The translations under genes and the position numbers were made by a program. Below the pieces are notes generated by a model. The model saw nothing but the letters and a program-made list of their open reading frames with translations, was not told where the DNA came from and did no database searches. From Mangrovimonas spongiae (lineage in GTDB: Bacteria; Bacteroidota; Bacteroidia; Flavobacteriales; Flavobacteriaceae): a stretch of DNA of 64,000 bases. Each line of letters begins with the position of its first letter. The first letter of the stretch is position 1. The DNA is taken from positions 310,001 to 374,000 of the forward strand of contig NZ_RWBG01000002.1 of the NCBI RefSeq assembly GCF_003944795.1. Direction: 5' to 3'. Below are positions 5,699-53,041 of the stretch, in pieces.

Positions 5699-6513
5699 TG
5701 GCAAAAAAGCAGGTAGACGACATGTCGTTTTTAGACCATCTAGAGGATTTAAGATGGCATCTTATAAGAGCGACATTAGCAATATTATTAACGGCAACAG
5801 TAGCCTTTATTTTTAGTAGAGCTATTTTTAAGCATATCATTTTTGCGCCTCTAGATATGGGGTTTCCTACTTATAATATGCTATGCCAAATAGCAAAATT
5901 AATTAATGTAGACACCACATTTTGTAACGACTCCTTACCGTTAATTATTCAAAACCGCACCATGGCTGGGCAATTTTCTGCCGATATTTGGACGGCTATT
6001 TTTAGCGGATTGGTTATTGCTTTCCCTTATGTTGTTTACCAATTTTGGCGCTTTTTAAGCCCTGGTTTACACCCCAACGAACGTAAACACTCTAGAGGAT
6101 TTATCATTATTTCTTCTTTATTGTTTTTTATAGGTGTTTTATTTGGGTATTACATTGTAACGCCGTTATCTATAAATTTCTTAGTCAATTACAATATTTC
6201 TGAAATGGTAGATAACCAAATCGATATTAGCTCTTACATTTCGTTAGTACGCTCCTCGGTATTGGCCTCTGGAATTATTTTCGAGCTCCCTATCATTATC
6301 TATTTTTTAACAAAAATAGGTTTGGTAACACCTCAAGGCATGAAAAAGTATAGAAAATTTGCCCTAGTTATTGTACTTGTTCTATCGGCTATTATTACAC
6401 CACCAGATATTGCCAGTCAAGTTATTGTAGCCATTCCTATATTAGTGCTATATCAAGTAAGTATTTACATTTCAAAAATAGTGGTTAAACGCGACCAAAA
6501 ACAACGCAAATAA
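5698..6513 (+). CDS. tatC: Sec-independent protein translocase TatC
   Basis: A 271-residue inner-membrane protein with about six hydrophobic segments. Family signatures are the cytoplasmic N-terminus SFLDHLEDLRWHLIRA and the first cytoplasmic loop FWRFLSPGLHPNERK, which in TatC binds twin-arginine signal peptides. It forms the receptor of the Tat pathway for folded proteins. It is translationally coupled to kpsF through a one-base overlap and followed after one base by the AhpD-like gene. No tatA is present in the window. Confidence 0.95.
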   Translation: MAKKQVDDMSFLDHLEDLRWHLIRATLAILLTATVAFIFSRAIFKHIIFAPLDMGFPTYNMLCQIAKLINVDTTFCNDSLPLIIQNRTMAGQFSADIWTAIFSGLVIAFPYVVYQFWRFLSPGLHPNERKHSRGFIIISSLLFFIGVLFGYYIVTPLSINFLVNYNISEMVDNQIDISSYISLVRSSVLASGIIFELPIIIYFLTKIGLVTPQGMKKYRKFALVIVLVLSAIITPPDIASQVIVAIPILVLYQVSIYISKIVVKRDQKQRK

Positions 6514-6514
6514 C

Positions 6515-6862
6515 ATGTCCGATTTAATAAACGAATTTAATGCCTATCGCTCAAAAATGAATGAGCACATATTAGAGGATAACAATAAAGTACTTAAGCG
6601 CATTTTTAATCTAGACACCAATGCCTTTAACGAAGGGGCTTTAGATAAAAAAACGAAAGAGCTACTTGGTTTAGTAGCTTCAACTGTTTTAAGATGCGAC
6701 GATTGTGTTAAATATCATCTAGAAGGCTGTGTAAAAGCAGGAGCCTCTAAAGCTCAAATTGTAGAAACATTAAGTATTGCCACTCTCGTTGGGGGAACTA
6801 TTGTAATTCCACACCTAAGAAGGGCTTACGAATACTTAGAAGCTTTAGAAGACCAACGTTAA
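6515..6862 (+). CDS. Carboxymuconolactone decarboxylase/AhpD-like protein
   Basis: A 115-residue all-helical protein with the AhpD-type redox motif CxxCxxxH, seen as CDDCVKYH, followed by LEGCVKAGASKAQIVETLSIA. The family ranges from gamma-carboxymuconolactone decarboxylases to alkylhydroperoxidase-like thiol enzymes; the CxxC points to the redox branch. It starts one base after tatC and precedes lptB by 76 bp, so it probably shares their transcript. The substrate is unknown. Confidence 0.85.
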   Translation: MSDLINEFNAYRSKMNEHILEDNNKVLKRIFNLDTNAFNEGALDKKTKELLGLVASTVLRCDDCVKYHLEGCVKAGASKAQIVETLSIATLVGGTIVIPHLRRAYEYLEALEDQR

Positions 6863-8577: not shown

Positions 8578-9330
8578 TTAAACCTGTTTTGAATTAGCCA
8601 TAAGAGACATGGCAATATAACTTAAAATGATTAGTGGAATACCAGCAAATTGAAAAACAATTAAAAAGACCACACTTAATATGATAAAAATATACCTAAT
8701 ACCATTGGCCTTAAACGACCAGTCTTTAAACTTTAATGCAAACAAACGAATAGGACTTACCAACAAATAACTACTTAACAACGTTAGTCCTAATAAAAAC
8801 CAAACATTTACAATAATGTTATTCATGGCATCGCTTTTTTGAAATTCAATAATTAAGGGCAACGACAAAATTAATAAGGCATTAGCTGGTGTTGGTAACC
8901 CTTTAAAGGCTGTTTGTTGTTCTTCATCTACATTAAATTTAGCTAGTCTGTAAGCAGAAGCTAACGTTACTAAAAACCCTATTAAGGCTATAGGTGCAAA
9001 TGTAAAATCGTGCCAATGTATAGCGTCTCCCCAATCGTTCGATAAAGTTGCTAGAGCTGTTTGGTCGCTTGCTAAGGTTAATAATCGAAACATAATTATT
9101 CCTGGCACCAAGCCGCTAGTTACCAAATCGGCTAAAGAATCTAATTGTATACCCAAATTACTTTGCACACCTAATAGTCTTGCCGCAAAACCATCAAAAA
9201 AATCAAAGAAAATACCTGCAAAAACAAAAAAGCTTGCTGCAACAAAATTATTATTCACAGCTAATACTACAGCTATACAACCGCAAAAAAGATTTAGCAA
9301 TGTAATAATATTAGGAATATGTTTTTTCAT
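8578..9330 (-). CDS. pssA: CDP-diacylglycerol-serine O-phosphatidyltransferase
   Basis: A 250-residue membrane enzyme making phosphatidylserine, the precursor of phosphatidylethanolamine. The CDP-alcohol phosphotransferase motif DG(x2)AR(x8)G(x3)D(x3)D is complete: DGFAARLLG near residue 45, then G and two aspartates in the following GIQLDSLAD. The N-terminus MKKHIPNIITLLNLFCGC is typical of bacterial type II PssA. About seven membrane segments are visible. It is divergent from the PorV/PorQ-like gene. Confidence 0.92.
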   Translation of the reverse strand: MKKHIPNIITLLNLFCGCIAVVLAVNNNFVAASFFVFAGIFFDFFDGFAARLLGVQSNLGIQLDSLADLVTSGLVPGIIMFRLLTLASDQTALATLSNDWGDAIHWHDFTFAPIALIGFLVTLASAYRLAKFNVDEEQQTAFKGLPTPANALLILSLPLIIEFQKSDAMNNIIVNVWFLLGLTLLSSYLLVSPIRLFALKFKDWSFKANGIRYIFIILSVVFLIVFQFAGIPLIILSYIAMSLMANSKQV

Positions 9331-9417
9331 AAAACAACGTTTAAGTATGTAAAAATAACAAACTATTTACGTCTAAAACAAAAACCAAACAATATCTATT
9401 GACATTTCAAGTTTAAT

Positions 9418-10533
9418 ATGTTGAAAAATAATATCATATTTGCAAAAAAGAATTGTCTTTTGAAAACCTTACTAACCTTACTAACGTGTTTTGTAATCAC
9501 ATGTTCTGCTCTGGGACAAACGGTTAGAAAATATTCTAACGAATTTATGAATATTGGTGTCGATGCAGCTGCTCTAGGTATGGCTAACGCTGTTACTGCT
9601 CATACGGCCGATGTAAATTCTGGATACTGGAATCCCGCTGGTTTACTACATTTAGAAGACAAAGAGTTAGCGCTTATGCACTCTAGTTATTTTGCTAATA
9701 TTGCCAATTACGACTACATTGGCTTTGCCATGCCTATTGACGACCGTAGTAGTATTGGGCTCTCTGTTATTAGATTTGCGGTTGACGATATTTTAAACAC
9801 CACACAGCTTATCGACGATCAAGGTAATATTAACTACGACCGAATTAGCACCTTCTCTACTGCCGATTATGGTGTCACATTCTCCTATGCCAGACAACTC
9901 CCTTTAGATGGATTACGATACGGTATTAATGCTAAGGTTATCCGCCGCATCATTGGCGATTTTGCCTCGTCTTGGGGGTTTGGCTTAGATGCCGCTGTTC
10001 AATTTGAAACAAAAAACGATTGGAAGTTTGGTATTATGGCTAGAGATATTACAACTACTTATAATGCTTGGAGTATTGATGAAGATGAGTTTTCTACTAT
10101 ACAAGATGCTGTAGAAGGCGAAAACCAAGAACTTCCAGAAACTACCGAAATTACCATCCCTAAATTGCAGCTTGGAGTCTCGAAAAAATTCATCATTAAT
10201 TACGACTATTCTATTTTAACCGAACTGGATTTAAATGTACGATTTGAAGAAAACAACGATATTATTTCAACATCTTTTGCAAGTATTAATCCAGCCTTAG
10301 GATTAGAGTTTGGCTATATTGATATGATTTTTCTTCGTGGTGGTTTAGGTAACTTTCAAAATGAACTTGAATACGACAATAGCGAACGTTTAAGTTTTCA
10401 ACCAAGTATGGGTGTTGGGTTTAGGTATAAAGGTATTCAAGTAGATTATGCCTTTACCGATATTGGTGACCAAAGTGTCGCCTTATATTCCAATGTATTT
10501 TCTCTAAAATTAGATTTTAGTATCTTCCGCTAG
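9418..10533 (+). CDS. PorV/PorQ family outer-membrane protein
   Basis: A 371-residue predicted outer-membrane beta-barrel of the PorV/PorQ (UPF0164) family. After the signal peptide comes GVDAAALGMANAVTAHTADVNSGYWNPAGL, whose parts ALGMANA and NPAGL mark the family. PorV shuttles type IX secretion substrates and PorQ is also a type IX accessory; which paralogue this is cannot be decided. The start is uncertain: ATG 9418 puts a charged 14-residue extension before the hydrophobic core, while TTG 9460 gives a cleaner signal peptide ending near SALG-Q. DUF4105 follows after 14 bp. Confidence 0.82.
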   Translation: MLKNNIIFAKKNCLLKTLLTLLTCFVITCSALGQTVRKYSNEFMNIGVDAAALGMANAVTAHTADVNSGYWNPAGLLHLEDKELALMHSSYFANIANYDYIGFAMPIDDRSSIGLSVIRFAVDDILNTTQLIDDQGNINYDRISTFSTADYGVTFSYARQLPLDGLRYGINAKVIRRIIGDFASSWGFGLDAAVQFETKNDWKFGIMARDITTTYNAWSIDEDEFSTIQDAVEGENQELPETTEITIPKLQLGVSKKFIINYDYSILTELDLNVRFEENNDIISTSFASINPALGLEFGYIDMIFLRGGLGNFQNELEYDNSERLSFQPSMGVGFRYKGIQVDYAFTDIGDQSVALYSNVFSLKLDFSIFR

Positions 10534-10547
10534 CGAAAAATTAAATC

Positions 10548-11723
10548 ATGAAACACCGTTACGCCTTTATTCTAATACTATTACTAACAACGCCATTAGT
10601 ATTAGCACAAACGCTATCACCAAAAGCCGAAATAAGTGTCTTAACTATTGGTCCTGGACAAGCTTTAAACGATGCGTTTGGACATAATGCCTTTAGAATT
10701 AAAGACCCCGCAAACGGCCTAGATGTCACGTACGATTATGGTCGCTTTGATTTTAACACCCCTAATTTTTATTTAAAGTTTGCCTCTGGAAAATTAAATT
10801 ATGCCATAGGAAAATCGAAATATAGTGATATTTATGGCTTTTATACATGGCAAAACCGTCGTGTAGAAGAACAAAAGCTTAACTTAACACAACCACAAAA
10901 ACAAGCTATTTACAACTATTTAGTAACGAACTACAAACCTGAAAACCGTTACTATTTATACGATTTCTTTTACGATAATTGCGCCACTAAAATTAAAGAT
11001 GTCGTTGCCGAAACGTTAAACCATAACTTACAATTTCACGCCCCAAAAGACTTTAAGCTGAAAACCTTTCGTACACTTATTCAAGAAAACTTACCTTGGA
11101 ACTCTTGGGGAAGCCTTGGTATTGATATTGCTTTAGGTGCTGTTATTGATAAAACAGCTACGCTAGAAGAACACATGTTTTTACCACAGTATATTAATTC
11201 CTTATTTGGTTTAGCAACTATTAATGCAGATAGCACCGCTTTAGTCACTTCTAAACAAACACTTTATACCCCTAAAAAAACAAAATCATCAAGCTTCTGG
11301 TTTATTATAATAAGTCCTATAGTTATATTTAGTTTACTAGCCCTTATTATAAGTTATATAACTTATCAAGATGCTAAAAAACAACGCCGCAGTAAAGGTT
11401 TAGATGGTGTTATTTTTGGTATTACAGGTAGTATTGGCATCCTACTTTTATTACTTTGGTTTGCTACCAATCATCACGCTACTGCCAACAACTATAATTT
11501 GTTATGGGCTAGCCCTTTAAGTCTTATCGCATTAAAACCACTACTAAGTCAGACACCTAAAGCCTGGGTAAGGAAATACCTTAAGTTTTTACTGATTTGC
11601 TTAGCACTTTTAGCATTTCATTGGCTTACTGGTGTTCAACAATTTGCGCTAGCTTTATTACCTTTATTTGTAGCATTGGCATATCGTTACATCTACCTAA
11701 TACATACATTAAAAACACAATAA
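10548..11723 (+). CDS. DUF4105 membrane-anchored periplasmic protein
   Basis: A 391-residue protein with an N-terminal signal peptide (cleavage likely after LVLAQ). The soluble domain at about 25-230 has the DUF4105 pattern ISVLTIGPGQALNDAFGHNA, YDYGRFDF and YLYDFFYDNCATKI; the conserved His, Asp and Cys suggest a papain-like hydrolase, though the function is unproven. Four or five C-terminal membrane segments follow (about 245-391). It is probably co-transcribed with the PorV/PorQ-like gene and is convergent with the sugar transferase, with only 4 bp between the two stop codons. Confidence 0.85.
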   Translation: MKHRYAFILILLLTTPLVLAQTLSPKAEISVLTIGPGQALNDAFGHNAFRIKDPANGLDVTYDYGRFDFNTPNFYLKFASGKLNYAIGKSKYSDIYGFYTWQNRRVEEQKLNLTQPQKQAIYNYLVTNYKPENRYYLYDFFYDNCATKIKDVVAETLNHNLQFHAPKDFKLKTFRTLIQENLPWNSWGSLGIDIALGAVIDKTATLEEHMFLPQYINSLFGLATINADSTALVTSKQTLYTPKKTKSSSFWFIIISPIVIFSLLALIISYITYQDAKKQRRSKGLDGVIFGITGSIGILLLLLWFATNHHATANNYNLLWASPLSLIALKPLLSQTPKAWVRKYLKFLLICLALLAFHWLTGVQQFALALLPLFVALAYRYIYLIHTLKTQ

Positions 11724-28333: not shown

Positions 28334-28468
28334 AAGTTGTGAGTTGTCAGTTGGAGGTTGTCAGTTGGGGGTTGTCGGTTATGGGTTATGAGCCAAGGCG
28401 GAAGACGTGAAGCGTGAGTTGTGAGTTGTGGGTTGTCGGTTGGAAGTTGGGAATTGGGAGTTGTGAGT
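28334..28468. repeat. Degenerate 7-bp tandem array (GTTGTGA-type)
   Basis: The plus strand reads as heptads such as GTTGTGA, GTTGTCA, GTTGGAG, GTTGTCG and GTTATGG, interrupted once near 28390-28410. The opposite strand is free of stops over 63 codons, which creates a spurious open frame. It lies between the asparagine-synthase-like gene and the small HTH-like gene. Confidence 0.8.
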
Positions 28469-28493
28469 TTTGTTAAAAGCAATTTTTATATGG

Positions 28494-30173: not shown

Positions 30174-30206
30174 GTGTGTGGTGAATACAAATATTAGTAG
30201 TAAATT

Positions 30207-30240
30207 GTGAGTAGTGAGTAGTGAGTAGTGAGTAGTGAAG
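30207..30240. repeat. 7-bp tandem array (GTGAGTA)
   Basis: Four perfect GTGAGTA units and a partial fifth. It is the reverse complement of the TCACTAC-type arrays at 49.7-51.0 kb. Confidence 0.85.
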
Positions 30241-30332
30241 ACTACAAAAAATAAAATCACCCTAAACTCCTGTCTCACGCCAGATAAGCATTTTAGGGGC
30301 TAACAACTCAATACCACACTAAACCACCTCCA

Positions 30333-30494
30333 TTCTGGCAACGCCAGAAAGCAAACGATTGTCTGCAGTGATAACGAACAACGATGCGGAAGTGCGTTCC
30401 GATACCATCGGAAAAGAGCATGAAGCATCGAGCGTGAGTGATCCAAAGGAAGTACCTCAGACAGGCTTGATCTTTTGGTTCGTTTTGCATCAAG
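30333..30494 (+). ncRNA. Structured intergenic element, copy 1 (RNA or folded DNA)
   Basis: The fold is inferred by eye. H1 is TTCTGGC-AAC-GCCAGAA (30333-30349). A long-range stem pairs TTGTCTG (30359-30365) with CAGACAG (30458-30464). Inside it, CGATGC/GCATCG (30382-30387/30425-30430) encloses TTCCGAT-ACC-ATCGGAA (30397-30413). H4 is CTTGAT/ATCAAG (30466-30494) around the conserved loop TTTTGGTTCGTTTT. Copies 3 and 4 have different stem sequences but equivalent pairing. Transcription is not shown; the known Flavo-1 RNA family should be compared. Confidence 0.6.
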
Positions 30495-30548
30495 GCAGAA
30501 TGAATGAAGAACATAAATAATAATATCTTGAAACTATTTATAAAAAAG

Positions 30549-30575
30549 AGATGCTGAACCAAGTTCAGCATGACA
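30549..30575 (-). repeat. TGTCAT...ATCT dispersed element
   Basis: A palindrome TGCTGAAC-CAA-GTTCAGCA between the constant ends AGAT and ATGACA. An identical copy is at 31723-31749. Confidence 0.8.
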
Positions 30576-30713
30576 AACAATTATTAACAAGAAAGTGCTG
30601 AAATATCTACCTGTCAGTTCACCTGCCGTAGGCATGGCAAATAAGGAGCATGACAGGGATTTATGACAGCTGATAATGCGACAATAAGCAATTTATACGG
30701 AGTTGGTAACAAC

Positions 30714-30744
30714 TTGCAATAGATTCAAATTTGGTGTATATTTA
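30714..30744 (+). promoter_or_regulatory. Possible parDE promoter/operator
   Basis: TTG (30714-30716), 20 bp, then TATATTTA (30737-30744), one mismatch from TAnnTTTG. The -7 box lies in a small palindrome TGTATATTTACA, a plausible ParD binding site. The ATG follows after 17 bp. Confidence 0.4.
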
Positions 30745-30761
30745 CATCAAATAATAACATT

Positions 30762-31001
30762 ATGGCAAGACAAAGTATATCTTTTACAAAACCTAACGAT
30801 GAGTGGCTAAAAGCTCAAGTGGAAAATAACGAATACTCAAGCAAAAGTGAGCTTGTTAATGACTTGATTAGACAAGCCCGAAAACAACAAGTTCAAATAG
30901 ATTGGATTAGAGTCAAACTTGAAAAAGCCGAAAATAGCGGATTTTCAAATGATAGTAAGGAAAGTATTCTAGCACAATCCAAGTCTTTGCTTAATGGTTA
31001 A
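30762..31001 (+). CDS. parD: ParD-like antitoxin
   Basis: A 79-residue protein with a ribbon-helix-helix N-terminus (SISFTKPNDEWLKAQVENNE) and the ParD motif YSSKSELVNDLIRQARKQQ. The C-terminal half is charged and would wrap around the toxin. ParD proteins neutralise ParE and repress their own promoter. It overlaps the toxin gene by 8 bp, the usual order and spacing. The pair is plus-strand inside a minus-strand locus and is bracketed by the 400-bp direct repeats. Confidence 0.88.
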   Translation: MARQSISFTKPNDEWLKAQVENNEYSSKSELVNDLIRQARKQQVQIDWIRVKLEKAENSGFSNDSKESILAQSKSLLNG

Positions 31002-31281
31002 ATATAGATTGACCAACGAAGCAAAAAGTGACTTGATTCGGATTCACCATTACGGCGTTGAAAAATTCGGTATGACTCAAGCTGACAACTATTTCGAATC
31101 GTTTTTTAAATATTTTGACAGTATTGCAGAAAGCCCTTTTTCCTTTGAGTCTGTGGATTACATAAAAGAAGGCTATAGACGCTGCGTATGTGGCGTTGAC
31201 AGCATTTATTTTAGAGTCAATGACAACATTGTCGAGATAATGGCAATAGTTGGAAAACAAGATGTAAACACAAAACTTTAA
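30994..31281 (+). CDS. parE: ParE/RelE-superfamily toxin
   Basis: A 95-residue protein with the ParE pattern YRLTNEAKSDLIRIHHYGVE at the N-terminus, a hydrophobic-aromatic helix (ADNYFESFFKYFDSIAESP) and the C-terminal strand pair GYRRCVCGVDSIYFRVND followed by IVEIMAIVGKQD. ParE toxins inhibit DNA gyrase; RelE relatives cut mRNA on the ribosome. The sequence looks more like ParE. The frame is intact, so the pair is probably active. Confidence 0.88.
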   Translation: MVKYRLTNEAKSDLIRIHHYGVEKFGMTQADNYFESFFKYFDSIAESPFSFESVDYIKEGYRRCVCGVDSIYFRVNDNIVEIMAIVGKQDVNTKL

Positions 31282-31431
31282 CTGAATTAATAAAAGCCTG
31301 CATAACCGCCGTTACGGGGTACTGACTCTGAACGGCAACATACTCGGAATTTCTAAAAACTTTCTATAATGAGATGTAGAACCATCTACCTGTTAGTAGA
31401 CAGAAGCATGACAGAATATAATTAAGCTCTG
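31282..31431. other. Short spacer after parE with hairpins
   Basis: No gene is seen. An inverted repeat GCCGTT/AACGGC with a 17-bp loop lies at about 31309-31338. A TGTCAT-type element with a CTACCTGTTAG/AGACAG interior lies at about 31371-31413. Confidence 0.5.
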
Positions 31432-31506
31432 TCACCCTGGACTCCTGTATAACGACAGGCTAGCGTTTCAGGGACTAACAACTCAAACCACACTAAACCA
31501 ACCTCA

Positions 31507-31668
31507 TTCTGGCAACGCCAGAAAGCAAACGGCTGTCTGCAGTGATAACGAACAAAGATGCGGAAGTGCGTTCCGATACCATCGGAAAAGAGCATGAAGC
31601 ATCGAGCGTGAGTGATCCAAAGGAAGCACCTCAGACAGGCTTGATCTTTTGGTTCGTTTTGCATCAAG
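31507..31668 (+). ncRNA. Structured intergenic element, copy 2 (RNA or folded DNA)
   Basis: The same fold as copy 1: TTCTGGC-AAC-GCCAGAA (31507-31523), long-range CTGTCTG (31533-31539) with CAGACAG (31632-31638), TTCCGAT-ACC-ATCGGAA, and CTTGAT/ATCAAG (31640-31668). The long stem is fully Watson-Crick here, where copy 1 has one T-G wobble. Confidence 0.6.
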
Positions 31669-31722
31669 GCAAAATGAATGAAGAACATAAATAATAATAT
31701 CTTGAAACTATTTATAAAAAAG

Positions 31723-47283: not shown

Positions 47284-48350
47284 AAACTCTTGTTTATAAG
47301 TTTACATATACGATCAACCGTTTCAATAGACAAACTATCATATAAAGGCAAACACAATATGCGTTTTGAAATATCTTCAGAAATTAGCTTACTATTTTTT
47401 TCAATATAAGGTAAGGTATTTAAACTTGGATAAAAGTAGCGTCTAGGAAATATATTATTTTCGTTAAGCTTTATTTTAGCCTTGAGCAACTGTGTTTCAT
47501 TTTCAAAAATCACCGGGTAATAACTGTAATTCCACTGGGTGCCTTCCCGTAATTTTAATGGTTTTAAAGGCAAACCAGCCAAAGCCTCATTATAAGATGC
47601 CACTATTTGTTTTCGTTGTTCCAAAATGATTCGCATATACGGCAATACCGCCAAGCCCATAGCCGCTTGGGGTTCGCTCATCTTGGCATTAATCCCCAAC
47701 CCTTGAAAACTCTCTTGACCCTTATGCCCAAAGTTGTGATGATAAAACATCCTATCGTAATGCTCCGATTTGCAAAACAAGGCACCACCTTCCCCAGTAT
47801 GAAAGAGTTTAGTGGCATGAAAACTACAGGTACTCACATCGCCATAATTAAAAATAGATTGGCCTTTATAGGTGACCCCAAAACAGTGAGCGGCATCGTA
47901 AATAACCTTTAACCCATATTTATCTGCAATGGCCTGTATAGTTTCCACATCACAGGGGTTTCCAAAGACGTGGGTCGCCAATATGGCTGTAGTATTTGGG
48001 GTTATCGCGGCTTCTATTTTAGTTTCGTCTATGGTCAAATACTCCGGATGGATATCTACAAACACAGGCGTACAGCCTTCCCATACAATAATGCTGGTGG
48101 TGGCCACATAACTAAAGGGTGTGGTAATGATTTCCCCTGTTAACCCTAAGGCTTTTATAGCTATTTGTAAAGGCAAAGTTCCATTGGTCATGGCTATGAT
48201 GTTACCAGCATCTAAATAATCTTTTAGTTTAGCTTCAAGTTCTTGCACCAAAACGCCTCGATTAGTCATCCAACCTGTATCCCAAGCCCGTTTTAAAATA
48301 GCTTGGTACTCATCCTGTGGTGGTAAAAAGGTTTTGGTTACGTTTATCAT
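47280..48350 (-). CDS. DegT/DnrJ/EryC1/StrS family aminotransferase
   Basis: A 356-residue PLP enzyme with AMTNGTLPLQIAIKALGLTG for cofactor binding, DAAHCFGVTYKGQ, and the catalytic lysine in SFHATKLFHTGEGGALF. It transaminates a keto-sugar nucleotide to an amino-deoxysugar. The match to 4-amino-4,6-dideoxyhexose enzymes is suggested by the coupled WbqC-like gene, but no dTDP-sugar genes (rmlA/rmlB) are in the window, so the substrate would come from elsewhere. It lies one base from the wzt stop. Confidence 0.88.
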   Translation of the reverse strand: MINVTKTFLPPQDEYQAILKRAWDTGWMTNRGVLVQELEAKLKDYLDAGNIIAMTNGTLPLQIAIKALGLTGEIITTPFSYVATTSIIVWEGCTPVFVDIHPEYLTIDETKIEAAITPNTTAILATHVFGNPCDVETIQAIADKYGLKVIYDAAHCFGVTYKGQSIFNYGDVSTCSFHATKLFHTGEGGALFCKSEHYDRMFYHHNFGHKGQESFQGLGINAKMSEPQAAMGLAVLPYMRIILEQRKQIVASYNEALAGLPLKPLKLREGTQWNYSYYPVIFENETQLLKAKIKLNENNIFPRRYFYPSLNTLPYIEKNSKLISEDISKRILCLPLYDSLSIETVDRICKLINKSL

Positions 48351-48351
48351 A

Positions 48352-49572
48352 TCATTTAAGTTCTACAGCTACATCTGTTTGTAGTTCAAAGGGCACCCAC
48401 ATACTCTTATCTCCTACAGCCGAAAATTTTATAAAATTGTTCACCCTCAAAATAGGGCTGTTACTTTCAGCATCTTTTACAATAATATCAATACCATAAG
48501 CCCCTAGTGTAAACATTGAGTTTTTAATGGTAAAATAATACTTTAAATACTTGGCGTCTTTAACCTCAGTAGATTCTTGGCCGCTCTGCACTCCTGCCAC
48601 AGGTCTTAAATCTTTATCCTTTATTTCCATATATACGGTAGGCAACACTTTAAAATTTCCTTTCTTTATAGCAAAACAAAGGCTTATTCCTATATCTTGC
48701 CCTCTCAACACTTGGCCTTGTTCTAAATCGCAATTGTGGGACAAAAACTCTAAACTCCCATCATCAAACACCACATTGCTTTCATTATTAGCAAACCGTG
48801 TATAATACAAATCTATGCCTTTGGCTACATCAGTCCCTTGAAATTTAGGCTTACCATGCTCCATTAATATAATATGGTTACAAATACGGGATATCATAGG
48901 CATACTATGGCTTACAAATACGATAGCCGTGTTGGGCAAAATAGTATCAATTTGCTTAAAACACTTTAATACAAATCCTAAATCCCCAACTGCTAAGACC
49001 TCATCAATAATCAACACATCGGGTTCCATTTGGGCAGCTACGGCAAAGCCCAGTCGTACTTTCATCCCGCTACTGTAATGTTGCACGGGCATATCAATAA
49101 AGTCTTCCAGTTCGGCAAAAGCAATAATGTCGTCCAACTTGCGGGTAATCTCTTGTCTTGTAAACCCTAACACCGCCCCATTGTTATAAATGTTTTCGCG
49201 CCCCGTGAGTATGGGATTAAAGCCAGCACCCAGCTCAATTAAAGCGCCTACACGTCCTTTTATAGTCACTTTACCAGCATCGGGGTTAATCAAGCCGTTT
49301 AGTATTTTAAGCAGGGTACTTTTACCAGCACCATTATGGCCAATAAGCCCCAAACACTCGCCACGGCGTAGCTCGAAACTCACATCTTTTACCGCCCAAA
49401 ATTCTTTGGGGCGCAGTTCGCGGTTATGCTTGTTACCCCGAACCCCGCTAACCAAATCCTTTACGCCATACCATAAGCTGGTCTTGAGGTCTTTGCAAAA
49501 CTTTTTACTGAGGCCTTCTACCTTTACAAGGACGTCGTTGGTGTTTGATATGTCTTGTGTTTGATTCGTCAT
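48352..49572 (-). CDS. wzt: Polysaccharide ABC exporter ATPase with C-terminal extension (Wzt)
   Basis: About 406 residues. Residues 1-250 are the ATPase: Walker A GHNGAGKSTLL, signature YSSGMKVRLGFAVA, Walker B VLIIDEVLAVGD. Residues about 260-406 form a beta-rich extension like the Wzt carbohydrate-binding domain that recognises the capped end of the polymer in O9a-type systems. I chose ATG 49572 (MTNQTQDISN) rather than the ATG 18 bp upstream because decayed copies of this gene start, upstream, begin at the equivalent methionine (MSKQNQDIPP). Confidence 0.92.
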   Translation of the reverse strand: MTNQTQDISNTNDVLVKVEGLSKKFCKDLKTSLWYGVKDLVSGVRGNKHNRELRPKEFWAVKDVSFELRRGECLGLIGHNGAGKSTLLKILNGLINPDAGKVTIKGRVGALIELGAGFNPILTGRENIYNNGAVLGFTRQEITRKLDDIIAFAELEDFIDMPVQHYSSGMKVRLGFAVAAQMEPDVLIIDEVLAVGDLGFVLKCFKQIDTILPNTAIVFVSHSMPMISRICNHIILMEHGKPKFQGTDVAKGIDLYYTRFANNESNVVFDDGSLEFLSHNCDLEQGQVLRGQDIGISLCFAIKKGNFKVLPTVYMEIKDKDLRPVAGVQSGQESTEVKDAKYLKYYFTIKNSMFTLGAYGIDIIVKDAESNSPILRVNNFIKFSAVGDKSMWVPFELQTDVAVELK

Positions 49573-49586
49573 ATATTCTAGATTCT

Positions 49587-49697
49587 TCACTTCGCTACGC
49601 TAGTTCTGAATGACAATTTACTGCTTTTTTTGCTTAGGTCTTCTACCTTTACAAGAACGTCGTTATTGGGTGGTATGTCTTGATTTTGTTTACTCAT
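49587..49697 (-). pseudogene. Decayed wzt 5' end, copy A
   Basis: An ATG at 49697 opens a 36-codon frame beginning MSKQNQDIPPNNDVLVKVED, then LSKK. Wzt itself begins MTNQTQDISNTNDVLVKVEG, then LSKKF. Homology ends after LSKK, where the frame runs into a dispersed element and stops. Confidence 0.8.
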
Positions 49698-49758
49698 GTA
49701 TGTTTTATTCGGGAATCGTGAATCGGGAAACGGGAATCGAAAATGTTTTTTTCAACTA

Positions 49759-49831
49759 TTCACTTCTCATTATTCACTTCTCACTACTCAATACTCAATA
49801 CTCACTTCTCATTATTCACTTCCCACTACTT
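49759..49831. repeat. 7-bp tandem array (TCACTTC/TCACTAC)
   Basis: Degenerate heptads on the plus strand such as TCACTTC, TCATTAT, TCACTAC and TCAATAC. It is the first of four such arrays, one per unit (the others are near 50152-50245, 50572-50675 and 50949-51030). Confidence 0.85.
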
Positions 49832-49837
49832 TTTCAA

Positions 49838-49915
49838 AGATTCTTCGCTAACGCTCTGAATGACAAACACCATGTCATGCAGAAGGAGGTTATGCAATAA
49901 CCGACTGAAGCATCT
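49838..49915. repeat. Inverted pair of TGTCAT...ATCT elements
   Basis: An element in minus orientation (49838-49865) faces one in plus orientation (49873-49915) across 7 bp; the ends AGATTCTTC/GAAGCATCT and CTGAATGACA/TGTCATGCAG are complementary. The second has an interior hairpin GGTTAT-GCA-ATAACC. Near-identical pairs lie at about 50253-50331 and 50684-50762. Confidence 0.8.
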
Positions 49916-49983
49916 CTATTTTAATTCTACTTATAATGTTTTAGATTCATCACTTCGCTACGCTAGTTCTGAATGACAATTTA

Positions 49984-50042
49984 CTGCTTTTTTTGCTTAG
50001 GTCTTCTACCTTTACAAGGCCGTCGTTGTTGGGTGGTATGTT
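49984..50042 (-). pseudogene. Decayed wzt 5' end, copy B
   Basis: Encodes NIPPNNDGLVKVEDLSKK in the ancestral frame, but the original ATG has been replaced by unrelated sequence ending in a dispersed element (50094-50120). Confidence 0.7.
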
Positions 50043-50093
50043 ATGTTCATCGTTGTTCAATTGTTTGTTATTCTAAATTACATGTGTTTATTG

Positions 50094-50120
50094 AGATGCT
50101 TCGACAGGCTCAGCATGACA
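50094..50120 (-). repeat. TGTCAT...ATCT dispersed element
   Basis: Minus-strand TGTCATGCTGAGCCTG then TCGAAGCATCT. Identical copy at 50510-50536. Confidence 0.8.
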
Positions 50121-50400
50121 ATATGCTTTTTTTATTCAAAAAATGTGAATCCACTCACGCCTCACTACTTATCACTAATCGCTCATTACTCACTATTCGC
50201 TATTAACTTCTCACTACTCAATACTCACATCTCACTTCCCACTACATTTTCAAAGATTCTTCGCTAACGCCCTGAATGACAAACACCATGTCATGCAGAA
50301 GGAGGTTATGCAATAACCGACTGAAGCATCTCTATTTTAATTCTACTTATAATGTTTTAGATTCATCACTTCGCTATGCTCGTTCTGAATGACAATTTAC

Positions 50401-50458
50401 TGCTTCTTTTACTTAGGTCTTCTACCTTTACGAGGCCGTCGTTGTTGGGTGGTATGTT
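50401..50458 (-). pseudogene. Decayed wzt 5' end, copy C
   Basis: Nearly identical to copy B, again lacking the ATG. Confidence 0.7.
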
Positions 50459-50509
50459 ATGTTCATCGTTGTTCAATTGTTTGTTATTCTAAATTACATG
50501 TGTTTATTG

Positions 50510-50536
50510 AGATGCTTCGACAGGCTCAGCATGACA
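50510..50536 (-). repeat. TGTCAT...ATCT dispersed element
   Basis: Second copy of the 27-bp element at 50094. Confidence 0.8.
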
Positions 50537-50834
50537 ATATGCTTTTTTTATTCAAAAAATGTGAATCCACTCACGCCTCACTACTTATCACTAATCGCTC
50601 ATTACTCACTATTCGCTATTAACTTCTCACTACTCACTACTCAATACTCACTTCTCATTATTCACTTCCCACTACATTTTCAAAGATTCTTCGCTAACGC
50701 TCTGAATGACAAACACCATGTCATGCAGAAGGAGGTTATGCAATAACCGACTGAAGCATCTCTATTTTAATTCTACTTATTATGTTTTAGATTCATCACT
50801 TCGCTATGCTCGTTCTGAATGACATTTTGCCTTT

Positions 50835-50918
50835 CTATTTTACTGTTTCTTTTATTAGGTTTTCCACCTTTACGAGGCCGTTGTTGTTGGGTGGTATGTT
50901 TTTATTTTGTTTACTCAT
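50835..50918 (-). pseudogene. Decayed wzt 5' end, copy D
   Basis: An ATG at 50918 opens MSKQNKNIPPNNNGLVKVEN followed by a diverged tail and TAG after 27 codons. Copy D and copy A share the ATG and the upstream TTTTATTCGGGAATCGTG, so they represent the ancestral form, with B and C derived. Confidence 0.75.
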
Positions 50919-51034
50919 CTTTTATTCGGGAATCGTGAATTGGAAATCGACTCACTTTTCACTACTCACGGCTCACTACTCACTTCTCACTACTCACTTC
51001 TCACTACTCATTACTAACATCTCACTACTCGCCC

Positions 51035-51880
51035 CTACGCACTCATCCGTTCTACAATAATAGGAATAGATAATCTATAAAACACTAATCCTAAACATAA
51101 TAGTGGCACACAAACCAATAATAATCCGATATAATAGGGTAAAAACTGTAATGGTTGCCCTAAAGCCATATCTCTAGCGGTGACAATAATAGGTGTAAAC
51201 GGATTCCATAGCATAATGCTTCTCATAATACCCTCTTTAGGAATGGCATATACTACAGGTGTGACGTACATCACAAATCCTAATCCGAAACTAATCAACC
51301 GGCTAACATCTTTATACAACATGCCAATAGGTGTTATAAACAAGCCTATGGTAATCCCAAAAAACACCGCTGCCAATAACGCAAACGGTAACAACAATAA
51401 GCTCCAATGGAATCCAACACCAAACACAAAAATAAATACGACTAACAAGAGTACTTTTATCGCACTATTAAACAGTAACTTAAAAATCCCCGACACCACT
51501 AAAGCTTCTTTAGGAAAATTAATCTTAGTTAAAATAGATTTAGCCGCATTGGTGCTAGACATTGGCGTGTTAATAGACTCTTTAATAATAGACCACAACA
51601 AGGTTCCTGAAAAAGCATACACAGGATACGGCACTCCGGTATCGGTTAGCCTAATGGTCCCCGTACTGTTAAGGAATATCCAAACAAAAGCGGTGGTTAA
51701 TGGTGTAATAAAGGCCCATAAAATCCCAAAATACGACTGACGGTATTGTGCTTTGATATCGCGAACCGCTAACTGTGTTGCCAAAAAACGAGACGATATA
51801 ATATCGGTTAACGAAGCGCGCAACAGCCTACCAAACCGCAGGTTGTTTTCTTTCTGATACACGCGTGTTTCTAAACTCAT
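51035..51880 (-). CDS. wzm: Polysaccharide ABC exporter permease (Wzm)
   Basis: A 281-residue ABC-2 type permease with six membrane segments. The amphipathic N-terminal region LAVRDIKAQYRQSYFGILWA and the following FITPLTTAFVWIF are characteristic of Wzm/TagG proteins, and GVPYPVYAFSGTLLWSIIKE fits too. With Wzt it exports undecaprenyl-linked polysaccharide across the inner membrane. Wzm and Wzt genes normally touch or overlap; here 1.46 kb of repeats separate them, which raises the question of how wzt is expressed. Confidence 0.93.
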   Translation of the reverse strand: MSLETRVYQKENNLRFGRLLRASLTDIISSRFLATQLAVRDIKAQYRQSYFGILWAFITPLTTAFVWIFLNSTGTIRLTDTGVPYPVYAFSGTLLWSIIKESINTPMSSTNAAKSILTKINFPKEALVVSGIFKLLFNSAIKVLLLVVFIFVFGVGFHWSLLLLPFALLAAVFFGITIGLFITPIGMLYKDVSRLISFGLGFVMYVTPVVYAIPKEGIMRSIMLWNPFTPIIVTARDMALGQPLQFLPYYIGLLLVCVPLLCLGLVFYRLSIPIIVERMSA

Positions 51881-51906
51881 TTAATTGGTAACGTTATTCC
51901 TAAGGG

Positions 51907-51935
51907 CTAAGATAACAATTGCTACAACAAACCAA
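51907..51935 (-). promoter_or_regulatory. Possible promoter for wzm
   Basis: On the minus strand TTG (51933-51935), 18 bp, then TATCTTAG (51907-51914), one mismatch from TAnnTTTG, 26 bp before the wzm start. Confidence 0.4.
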
Positions 51936-51985
51936 AACTTACTATTAAAAAATCAAGATTTCGTAACAAGTGGATAATTTGTAAG

Positions 51986-52012
51986 AGATGCTGAAATGAA
52001 TTCAGCATGACA
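51986..52012 (-). repeat. TGTCAT...ATCT dispersed element
   Basis: TGCTGAA-ATGAA-TTCAGCA palindrome between the constant ends AGAT and TGACA. Confidence 0.8.
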
Positions 52013-52146
52013 AGGAGCTTAAATACAAAGAGATACTGAACTATCTACCTGCCGTAGGCATGGCTAACAGGCCTGCCTGCCGTTAGGAAGGAGCATAACA
52101 AAAAGAATGTCATTTAAAGTAAGTAGAGTACCACAAAGAATCCCAT

Positions 52147-52226
52147 TGTCATTCAGAGTGAGCGCAGAGACACGAAGAATCTACCCTGTCATTCAGAACG
52201 TAACGTAGTGAAGTGAAGAATCTTTT
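52147..52226 (+). repeat. 80-bp double element, left flank of GIY-YIG gene
   Basis: Two TGTCATTCAGA...GAAGAATCT elements in tandem (interiors GTGAGCGCAGAGACAC and ACGTAACGTAGTGAAGT). The same double module recurs in direct orientation at 52621-52700. Confidence 0.85.
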
Positions 52227-52239
52227 ATAAATTTAAAAC

Positions 52240-52545
52240 ATGAAAACCAAAGGCACCCATAACTATTATGTTTATATCCTAACCAATAAAAACAAAACTG
52301 TACTCTATACTGGTGTTACAAACAACCTAAAAGATAGATTATATCATCACAAAAACCCATTACCCTTCTCAAAAGCATTTACTGCTAAGTACAAGTGTTT
52401 TTACCTGATACACTACGAGCATTTTACAGAAATTGAACAAGCCATTAAAAGGGAAAAACAAATTAAAGGTATGAGCAGAGCAAAAAAAGAAACTCTAATT
52501 TCTAATTCCAATAAAGACTGGATATTTTTAAATGAAAGTATTTAA
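52240..52545 (+). CDS. Small GIY-YIG domain protein
   Basis: A 101-residue protein made of one GIY-YIG nuclease domain: YYVYILTNKNKTVLYTGVTN gives the two strands (YVYIL...YTGVT in place of GIY...YIG), NNLKDRLYHHK holds the catalytic Arg region, and EQAIKREKQIKGMSRAKKE the conserved Glu region, as in the UvrC/YhbQ-like family. It is plus-strand within a minus-strand locus and starts 13 bp after a dispersed repeat. The 80-bp repeat modules flank it directly, and an inverted element follows its stop by 6 bp. A role in moving those repeats is a hypothesis. Confidence 0.87.
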   Translation: MKTKGTHNYYVYILTNKNKTVLYTGVTNNLKDRLYHHKNPLPFSKAFTAKYKCFYLIHYEHFTEIEQAIKREKQIKGMSRAKKETLISNSNKDWIFLNESI

Positions 52546-52551
52546 AACCTT

Positions 52552-52594
52552 AGATTCTTCAGTCGGTCAATACTTGACCTCCTTCTGAATGACA
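52552..52594 (-). repeat. TGTCAT...ATCT dispersed element after GIY-YIG gene
   Basis: Minus orientation, with interior hairpin GGTCAA-GTA-TTGACC. It resembles the 43-bp elements at 49.9, 50.3 and 50.7 kb but with different stem bases. Confidence 0.8.
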
Positions 52595-52620
52595 ATCGCC
52601 TCTTCTATTCAGATACTCAC

Positions 52621-52700
52621 TGTCATTCAGAGTGAGCGACAGCGACACGAAGAATCTACCCTGTCAGTCAGAACGCACCCCAGTGAAGTGAAGAATCTTT
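52621..52700 (+). repeat. 80-bp double element, right flank of GIY-YIG gene
   Basis: Direct repeat of 52147-52226, with a few substitutions. Confidence 0.85.
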
Positions 52701-52728
52701 ATATTAAACCTCCCTTCTAAACTCCTTC

Positions 52729-52882
52729 TTCCTGCGAAGCAGGAAAACCACTTGTCGTAAGGATACATCTCAAAAGCTTCGAAATCCAGTCATACCATGA
52801 CGCGAAGTTTTGAGAGGGGTTTACCGCAGGTAAAATCCCTACCGACAAGGCGTCGTTTCTTTTGTTTCGTTTTCTTTAGACG
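52729..52882 (+). ncRNA. Structured intergenic element, copy 3 (RNA or folded DNA)
   Basis: H1 TTCCTGC-GAA-GCAGGAA (52729-52745). Long-range stem CTTGTCG (52751-52757) with CGACAAG (52843-52849). H2 pairs 52768-52781 with 52803-52815 (13 bp, one bulge) and carries an apical GTCAT-ACC-ATGAC. H3 is TTTACC-GCA-GGTAAA (52820-52834). H4 is CGTC/GACG (52851-52882) around a U-rich loop containing TTGTTTCGTTTT. The stems differ from copies 1, 2 and 4 but occupy the same places. Confidence 0.65.
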
Positions 52883-53041
52883 AGTAAAGAAAATGAAAAA
52901 ATATAAATAAGGTCATTTTAAAACAAAAGGAGATGCTGAAACAAGTTCAGCATGACAAACAATTATTAACAAGAAAGTGCTGAAATATCTACCTGTGACT
53001 AATAGAAGCACAATTAAAGACTAAATGACATCAAACACATA
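52883..53041. other. Repeat remnant before the epimerase stop
   Basis: No gene is seen. It contains a palindromic dispersed element at 52931-52957 (TGCTGAAACAAGTTCAGCA core) and a degenerate CTACCTGTG-type element near 52978-53010. Confidence 0.65.
52931..52957 (-). repeat. TGTCAT...ATCT dispersed element
   Basis: 27-bp palindromic form with a TGCTGAA/TTCAGCA stem. Confidence 0.8.

Follow-up and report, generated by a model that had tools for sequence, protein, structure and literature searches.

In Mangrovimonas spongiae, the two genes of a Wzm/Wzt-like polysaccharide exporter are separated by an array in which the start of wzt recurs four times. This array probably consists of tandem relics of former wzt starts, which were multiplied together with clusters of REP-like repeats by recombination and have no selected function. 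It lies in the 64,000-nucleotide stretch of contig NZ_RWBG01000002.1 analyzed here, which is called the window. An earlier note on the window had read the repeats as the outcome of duplication, possibly as the scar of a wzt swap and possibly as a source of decoy starts; the evidence below supports the first two ideas and, on small numbers, not the third. The genome containing the window (G000) is compared with three others, G001, G002 and G003, all from Mangrovimonas, with G003 taken as M. yunxiaonensis LY01.

Gene fragments and repeats in the wzm-wzt gap

On the minus strand, wzm is followed by a gap of 1,462 bp and then by wzt (Table 1), for which the list of open reading frames also offers a GTG start at 49590, upstream of the ATG used. 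The pair is organized as a Wzm/Wzt ABC exporter, with the permease adjoining the ATPase, a conserved ABC domain and a divergent C-terminal domain. The permease scores 51.8 bits against NCBIfam Wzm/RfbD, below the cut-off of 380, and no Pfam match to it was found at 0.001. Because the NCBIfam equivalog cut-offs are not reached, the exact Wzm/Wzt substrate family cannot be given from profile matches. The nearest named wzt is that of M. yunxiaonensis LY01, at about 94-95% identity, and wzm is 95% identical between the window and both G001 and G003.

Table 1. Positions of genes, wzt-start fragments and repeats around the wzm-wzt gap of the window
Feature	Position	Strand	Basis or remark
GIY-YIG endonuclease-like ORF of 101 aa next to wzm, with REPs of this kind on its flanks	52240..52545	+	four copies (96-99%) in G001
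wzm-like ABC-2 permease of polysaccharide exporter, upstream gene	51035..51880	-	NCBIfam Wzm/RfbD
7-bp array directly after wzm stop	50950..51030		repeat finding
wzt fragment D, ATG at 50918, 27 codons, tail type II (ending VENLIKETVK, stop)	50835..50918	-	wzt homology
REP cluster (REP1, inverted REP3, REP2) after fragment D	50684..50824	-	94% to a G001 cluster
7-bp (28-bp) array in unit between D and C (7-bp array also placed at 50598-50675)	50577..50675		repeat finding
wzt fragment C, TTG at 50476, 36 codons, tail type I (ending VEDLSKRSSKLSFRTSIAK, stop)	50366..50476	-	wzt homology
REP cluster after fragment C	50254..50394	-	93% to a G001 cluster
7-bp array in unit between C and B	50182..50245		repeat finding
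wzt fragment B, TTG at 50060, 36 codons, tail type I	49950..50060	-	wzt homology
REP cluster after fragment B	49838..49978	-	92% to a G001 cluster
7-bp array in unit between B and A	49755..49830		repeat finding
wzt fragment A, ATG at 49697, 36 codons, tail type I	49587..49697	-	wzt homology
Single REP directly before real wzt start	49573..49615	-	matches cluster positions 1-44 only
wzt-like ATP-binding subunit, 406 aa	48352..49572	-	ATG at 49572 used; NCBIfam Wzt/RfbE best, below cut-off

The gap contains the four segments homologous to the first 24 or so wzt codons that the earlier note had described. Each fragment comprises a start codon and about 24 codons of wzt and then runs into a REP-like element, with the type I tails of A, B and C ending in SSKLSFRTS(V/I)AK. 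The similarity is beyond chance: the gap aligned to its own wzt 5' end with a best local score of 72, the maximum among 100 shuffles of the gap was 31, and the 3' end of wzm scored 16 in the same comparison. Fragments A and D begin with ATG and B and C lack it, as had been noted, but the start is not lost in B and C: each has a TTG in frame, and the real wzt of M. yunxiaonensis starts with TTG as well. To call the copies decayed is too strong, given that an in-frame ATG or TTG begins an open frame of 27 or 36 codons, closed by a stop, in all four fragments here and all eight in G001. When the window's own genome was searched at the DNA level with the gap as query (E up to 0.001, so that weaker fragments elsewhere would escape), the seven other matches were all accounted for by the start of the real wzt, by REP pieces or by 7-bp repeat pieces.

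The repeating units are 363-430 bp long, with successive REP1 copies 430, 416 and 363 bp apart. After D, C and B the order is REP1, inverted REP3 and REP2, to which the units of the window add a 7-bp array, and a fourth REP is present in two of the three window units. The lengthening of the wzm-wzt leader that was suggested in the earlier note is a fact as far as length goes. The single REP before the real wzt start has a REP1-like beginning and a REP2-like end, as if the intervening REP3 had been deleted, the outcome to be expected if two REPs had recombined and lost what lay between them. In the three full clusters of the window and the eight of G001, REP1 and inverted REP3 form a pair of inverted REPs with a short spacer, as in a REPIN. 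Across the four Mangrovimonas genomes, the full 148-bp cluster was found only in the wzm-wzt array (eight in G001, three in the window's genome) and was found in neither G002 nor G003 (E of 0.001 or less). The REP2 part of the cluster is matched singly at further places in G000, G001 and G003.

The REP3 part of the cluster also matches the flank of the GIY-YIG gene beside wzm and the flanks of all four GIY-YIG copies of G001 (81-83%), and a hairpin of the cluster is present in the 3' flank of the gene in the window. The G001 copies, 96-99% identical, lie upstream of wzm among direct REP repeats. In a separate comparison of 25 loci, in which the four near-identical G001 copies were left out, small GIY-YIG genes were often bracketed by palindromes, with an inverted pair across the gene exceeding all 100 shuffles at 15 loci; these palindromes differ from genome to genome. 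Besides the gene listed in Table 1, GIY-YIG genes lie in locus L040 at 6304-6609, 9206-9511, 10236-10541 and 10756-11061. Elsewhere in G001 (L194, 1793-3307), an intergenic tandem array holds 14.5 copies of a 104-bp REP unit in which no gene fragment was seen, so REP units grow in tandem away from wzt too. Unlike in that array, the wzt start belongs to the repeated unit at the wzm-wzt junction.

The array in sister genomes and the change of affinity

When the wzm-wzt junction was compared in relatives, as had been proposed, the array was found again in G001, with the same junctions. The G001 gap measures 2,015 bp and carries eight wzt-start fragments in units of 230 or 241-242 bp. All 12 fragments of the two species lead into the same REP1, each by way of a type I or a type II tail. 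In the window, D on the wzm side is of type II and the other three fragments are of type I; G001 has six of type II towards wzm and two of type I towards wzt, so that type II adjoins wzm and type I adjoins wzt in both. When the final 60 bases of the fragments are compared, like types are 88-93% identical across species (10 pairs) and unlike types 69-77% within or between species (28 pairs); fragment A, which has no full REP cluster behind it, was excluded from this comparison. The REP clusters lack such a split by type, with 94-99% identity for like types across species and 98-99% for unlike types within the window.

Because the two fusion junctions are identical and stand in the same order in the window and G001, the array either predates the divergence of the two species or passed between them. 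The lack of a type split in the clusters means that these were homogenized or that the array moved between species later, so that common descent of the arrays is supported by the junctions and fragment ends and not by the clusters.

The window's genome is a draft of nine contigs, and repeats of this length can cause difficulties with short reads. It is nevertheless highly improbable that the array is an assembly artefact or a chance resemblance, since the same kind of array with the same junctions occurs in G001, where the locus sits on a single contig of 3,085,202 bases, and since the local score there is 100 against a shuffle maximum of 28, beside 72 against 31 in the window. The number of copies counted in the window may nonetheless be inexact. 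In the remaining two genomes the junction is built differently: wzm and wzt overlap by 4 bp in G002, and the 667-bp gap of G003 holds no wzt fragment and carries an S23p-family gene (PF05635), which matches one solved sequence, 2gsc, between heptamer arrays.

Similarity between genomes changes at the array. Compared with G001, the window is 85-93% identical in DNA from wzc to where the gap begins, wzm included, 79% in an initial stretch of 661 bases around the start and ABC domain of wzt, and only 20-28% in Wzt protein after about residue 240, in the C-terminal half. Compared with M. yunxiaonensis, DNA identity is 74% in the wzc region, 88% in wzm and 89% in wzt and the next gene; within Wzt, residues 1-40 are 70% identical and later blocks 92-100%, and the 89% similarity begins at about codon 13. 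The array therefore stands where two histories meet, one G001-like upstream and one M. yunxiaonensis-like downstream, and this position favors the earlier suggestion of a recombination scar from swapping wzt genes. The start types and N-termini of the fragments, which differ from those of the resident wzt, also count for an exchange.

Further features were noted elsewhere in the window. At 30326-31694, two small open reading frames that look toxin-antitoxin-like by eye are enclosed by a pair of direct repeats, each about 195 bp long (30326-30520 and 31499-31694), and the two repeats match one G001 stretch upstream of wzm. Further 7-bp and 14-bp arrays occur in the lower sugar gene cluster at 28343-28469 and 30196-30238, and the segment 28494-30172 is inverted relative to its position in G003.

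Possible leader function and proposed formation of the array

The fragments might instead be translated leader reading frames that tune wzt through decoy initiation, re-initiation or attenuation, with the number of units setting the dose, a reading that is quite unlikely on the evidence below. In 12/12 fragments a start codon is kept in frame and the reading frame stays open until a stop close by, and the array is present in two species. A codon test of the seven ATG fragments of G001 (copies g2-g8, codons 1-21) gave 11 variable sites, a number at which weak selection could stay hidden, distributed 1/2/8 over codon positions 1/2/3, with third positions varying more than positions 1+2 (p 0.004) and also more than noncoding columns (p 0.0095). 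However, the variability of positions 1+2 is not significantly below that of noncoding columns (3/42 versus 20/148, p 0.42), and changes private to one copy number 0/2/2 at the three positions, as against 10 in noncoding columns. Since the private changes fall in this way, the third-position excess resides mostly in variants common to several copies, which is as expected if the copies stem from different functional alleles and then drifted. Copies A and D of the window differ at 4/2/5 sites by codon position, units fold no better than their shuffles (z 1.67 and -0.32 for one unit per species), and M. yunxiaonensis, the closest relative by wzt, has no such fragment. The private changes and the comparison of positions 1+2 with noncoding columns thus leave a selected decoy function unsupported, on small numbers.

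A structured RNA leader was considered and set aside because the folding of one unit of each species resembles that of shuffles. No Rfam family reached its gathering threshold in 48000-53000. Sites resembling sigma-70 promoters, the type scanned for, numbered six against 5.9 expected.

On the preferred reading, that of wzt-start relics multiplied with REP clusters, a REP-like cluster would have been fused to the first 24-27 or so codons of a wzt allele, in an ancestor or a donor that at least two Mangrovimonas species have in common. The joining itself is evident in two fusion junctions that occur in the same order in both species. The first event may have been either a tandem duplication or an insertion into wzt followed by replacement. 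Unequal recombination between the repeats would then have multiplied the unit of wzt start, REP cluster and, in part, 7-bp array, leaving four additional copies in the window and eight in G001. The anatomy of the units and the G001 array both support the proposal of the earlier note that the array grew through successive duplications spanning the wzt start. The intact wzt always comes after the last unit, and so the gene is not interrupted.

Exchange of wzt and the genes behind it at the junction would account for the observed change of affinity, and the fragments would then be remnants of earlier wzt starts. The GIY-YIG nuclease beside wzm is the likeliest candidate source of the REP elements and perhaps also of the breaks. 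The effect of the array would be a tolerated one, namely a long wzm-wzt gap with wzt presumably translated from its own leader. The 12/12 open frames and the survival of the array in two species are compatible with function, and we infer that the array most likely has no selected one. In the data, which comprise one genome per species, no change of unit number was seen.

The junction across genera and comparison with known systems

A census covered 80 junctions, those of the window and G001-G003 plus 76 loci taken from the 80 best-ranked of 201 confirmed relatives; as the ranking was by similarity to the wzt of the window, it is a biased sample. Loci L042, L063, L115 and L116, which do not have both genes in one orientation, and L043, from the same genome as L039, were dropped. 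The statement that wzm and wzt normally touch applies to part of this set, with the genes within 25 bp of each other at 29/80 junctions and separated by at least 60 bp at 45/80. Of the 45 longer gaps, 28 have a 7-bp period that exceeds 50 shuffles as well as every other period tried. An S23p gene or its remnant occurs at 14/80 junctions (G003 included), in all 14 cases on the strand of the operon; 12 exceed the PF05635 cut-off, and the remaining two, read from the sequence, are broken by in-frame stops (L047) or lack a part (L082).

Both features are concentrated at this junction. Within the 76 loci (965,271 bases), 13 of 15 S23p genes fall in gaps that total 13,831 bases, and 18 arrays of period 7 lie in gaps (at 13 loci) and 21 elsewhere; gap arrays of period 8 number two, and those of period 4, 5, 6, 9, 10, 11 or 13 were not found. 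Among the junctions examined, the wzm-wzt gap is thus a hot spot for heptamer arrays and S23p genes. In 40 unselected relatives, eight had a close wzm, and an S23p gene was at the junction in one of these (G003). On the wzm tree, in which 34/76 inner branches are poorly supported, S23p presence requires at least 11 changes and the spaced or touching state at least 12 (shuffled mean about 24). The S23p gene exists in two sequence types, and Aequorivita has both.

The spacing of the genes is accompanied by differences in the N-terminus of Wzt. At the 29 touching loci, 4-7 residues precede the first conserved Wzt motif, always from an ATG, and at 49 spaced loci (two loci in which the motif is missing were left out) the median is 12 residues (3-83), with no ATG in that stretch at eight. 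At L052, L055 and L085 the heptamer array reads in frame into a wzt start without ATG, giving a repetitive N-terminal sequence, and at L071 it reaches the wzt ATG in frame; the nearest possible start at L055 lies 83 codons before the motif. In at least some of these loci array sequence has therefore become N-terminal coding sequence, where slippage could shift the frame because seven is not a multiple of three. A phase-variable simple-repeat locus, whose changing repeat number would turn a gene on or off within a population, was considered as a model on this account.

A rival account draws on such observations and takes the gap as a regulated site resembling an intervening sequence (IVS), into which heptamers and S23p genes insert, giving wzt a new start and N-terminus and altering RNA processing or translation, with the Mangrovimonas array as a derivative that lost its S23p gene. 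To the strand of the S23p genes, their concentration in gaps, the 7-bp period and the longer Wzt N-termini can be added that the flanks of S23p genes pair better than shuffles in 13/14 gaps (z -2.5 to -9.7; the exception is L047) and that heptamers also precede the S23p reading frame of the Coxiella 23S IVS (PMC4990558). Own flanks beat the mean of those from other loci in 11/14 gaps, but at least one foreign flank pairs better in 10/14. Neither the gap of the window, which contains none of the eight S23p (PF05635) matches of its genome, nor that of G001 has an S23p gene, and the junctions were chosen by wzt similarity. At 30 S23p rows elsewhere in the relatives (three places counted twice, five loci giving no row), period-7 identity in a flank, computed without shuffles, was at least 0.8 in only 2/30 and at least 0.7 in 14/30, so that S23p genes do not have heptamers as a fixed part. 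As an explanation of the Mangrovimonas array this account is unlikely.

Among the 45 longer gaps, four were flagged for wzt fragments (the window, G001, L052 and L085), and none for copies of the wzm 3' end. The candidates from other genera, L052 and L085, were not counted, as a heptamer array reads in frame into wzt at both. Two further gaps were recorded as side observations: that of L098 is an extended array whose strong period differs from 7, and that of L078 holds nine REP-like units.

The association of the junction with S23p genes and heptamers is a more surprising result than the array itself, and the 23S IVS is a close parallel. In Coxiella, the S23p reading frame is preceded by heptamers and bounded by terminal inverted repeats, and the IVS is excised by RNase III (PMC4990558). 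The junctions of the relatives resemble it in their S23p/PF05635 gene, heptamers and perhaps complementary flanks (14/80), but the elements between wzm and wzt sit in a protein-coding operon and not in rRNA, and the window's own gap has no S23p gene. Heptamer repeats, including TAACTGA and others and including those of Bacteroidetes, were treated genome-wide by MacGregor (2015; PMC4679880), who describes 7-bp direct repeats ahead of start codons, as seen here, and long arrays in Gramella and Aequorivita. By term counts, its main text is free of 'S23', 'intervening sequence', 'wzm' and 'wzt'. In the titles and abstract openings of the literature covered, with few subscription papers among them, the array, an S23p gene between wzm and wzt and a tie between GIY-YIG genes and REPs are unreported.

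A broader proposal, possible if doubtful, is that the wzm-wzt gap of Flavobacteriaceae is a preferred landing site of an mRNA-borne, intron-like S23p/heptamer element that refounds the wzt start with new start codons and N-terminal residues, and that O-antigen export could be switched or tuned there, through 7-bp slippage or the processing of RNA. One derivative would be the arrays of Mangrovimonas, with the wzt start multiplied together with REP clusters tied to a GIY-YIG nuclease in the place of a RAYT. A single junction that repeatedly attracts S23p genes and heptamers makes the question of the role and mobility of S23p testable in environmental marine bacteria.

Modular Wzt proteins have exchangeable C-terminal carbohydrate-binding domains. 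The Wzt of the window and that of G001 are alike in this respect, with a conserved ABC domain and unlike C-terminal parts; they differ from the known case in that relics of the 5' end remain ahead of wzt in the window. This row of fossil gene starts is a readable record of rebuilding at a locus for the export of surface sugars.

REP/REPIN repeat doublets are mobilized by RAYT tyrosine transposases. The repeats of the window resemble them as short imperfect palindromes in inverted order that are intergenic and both tandem and dispersed. They differ in their neighbor, as the Mangrovimonas repeats adjoin a GIY-YIG nuclease, and Y1_Tnp (PF01797), the RAYT family, was found in none of the four Mangrovimonas genomes by a search that was positive in 5/14 control genomes. 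By analogy, small GIY-YIG genes may partner these palindromic repeats as RAYTs partner REPs, and the palindromes that bracket such genes suggest a second kind of REP-associated nuclease.
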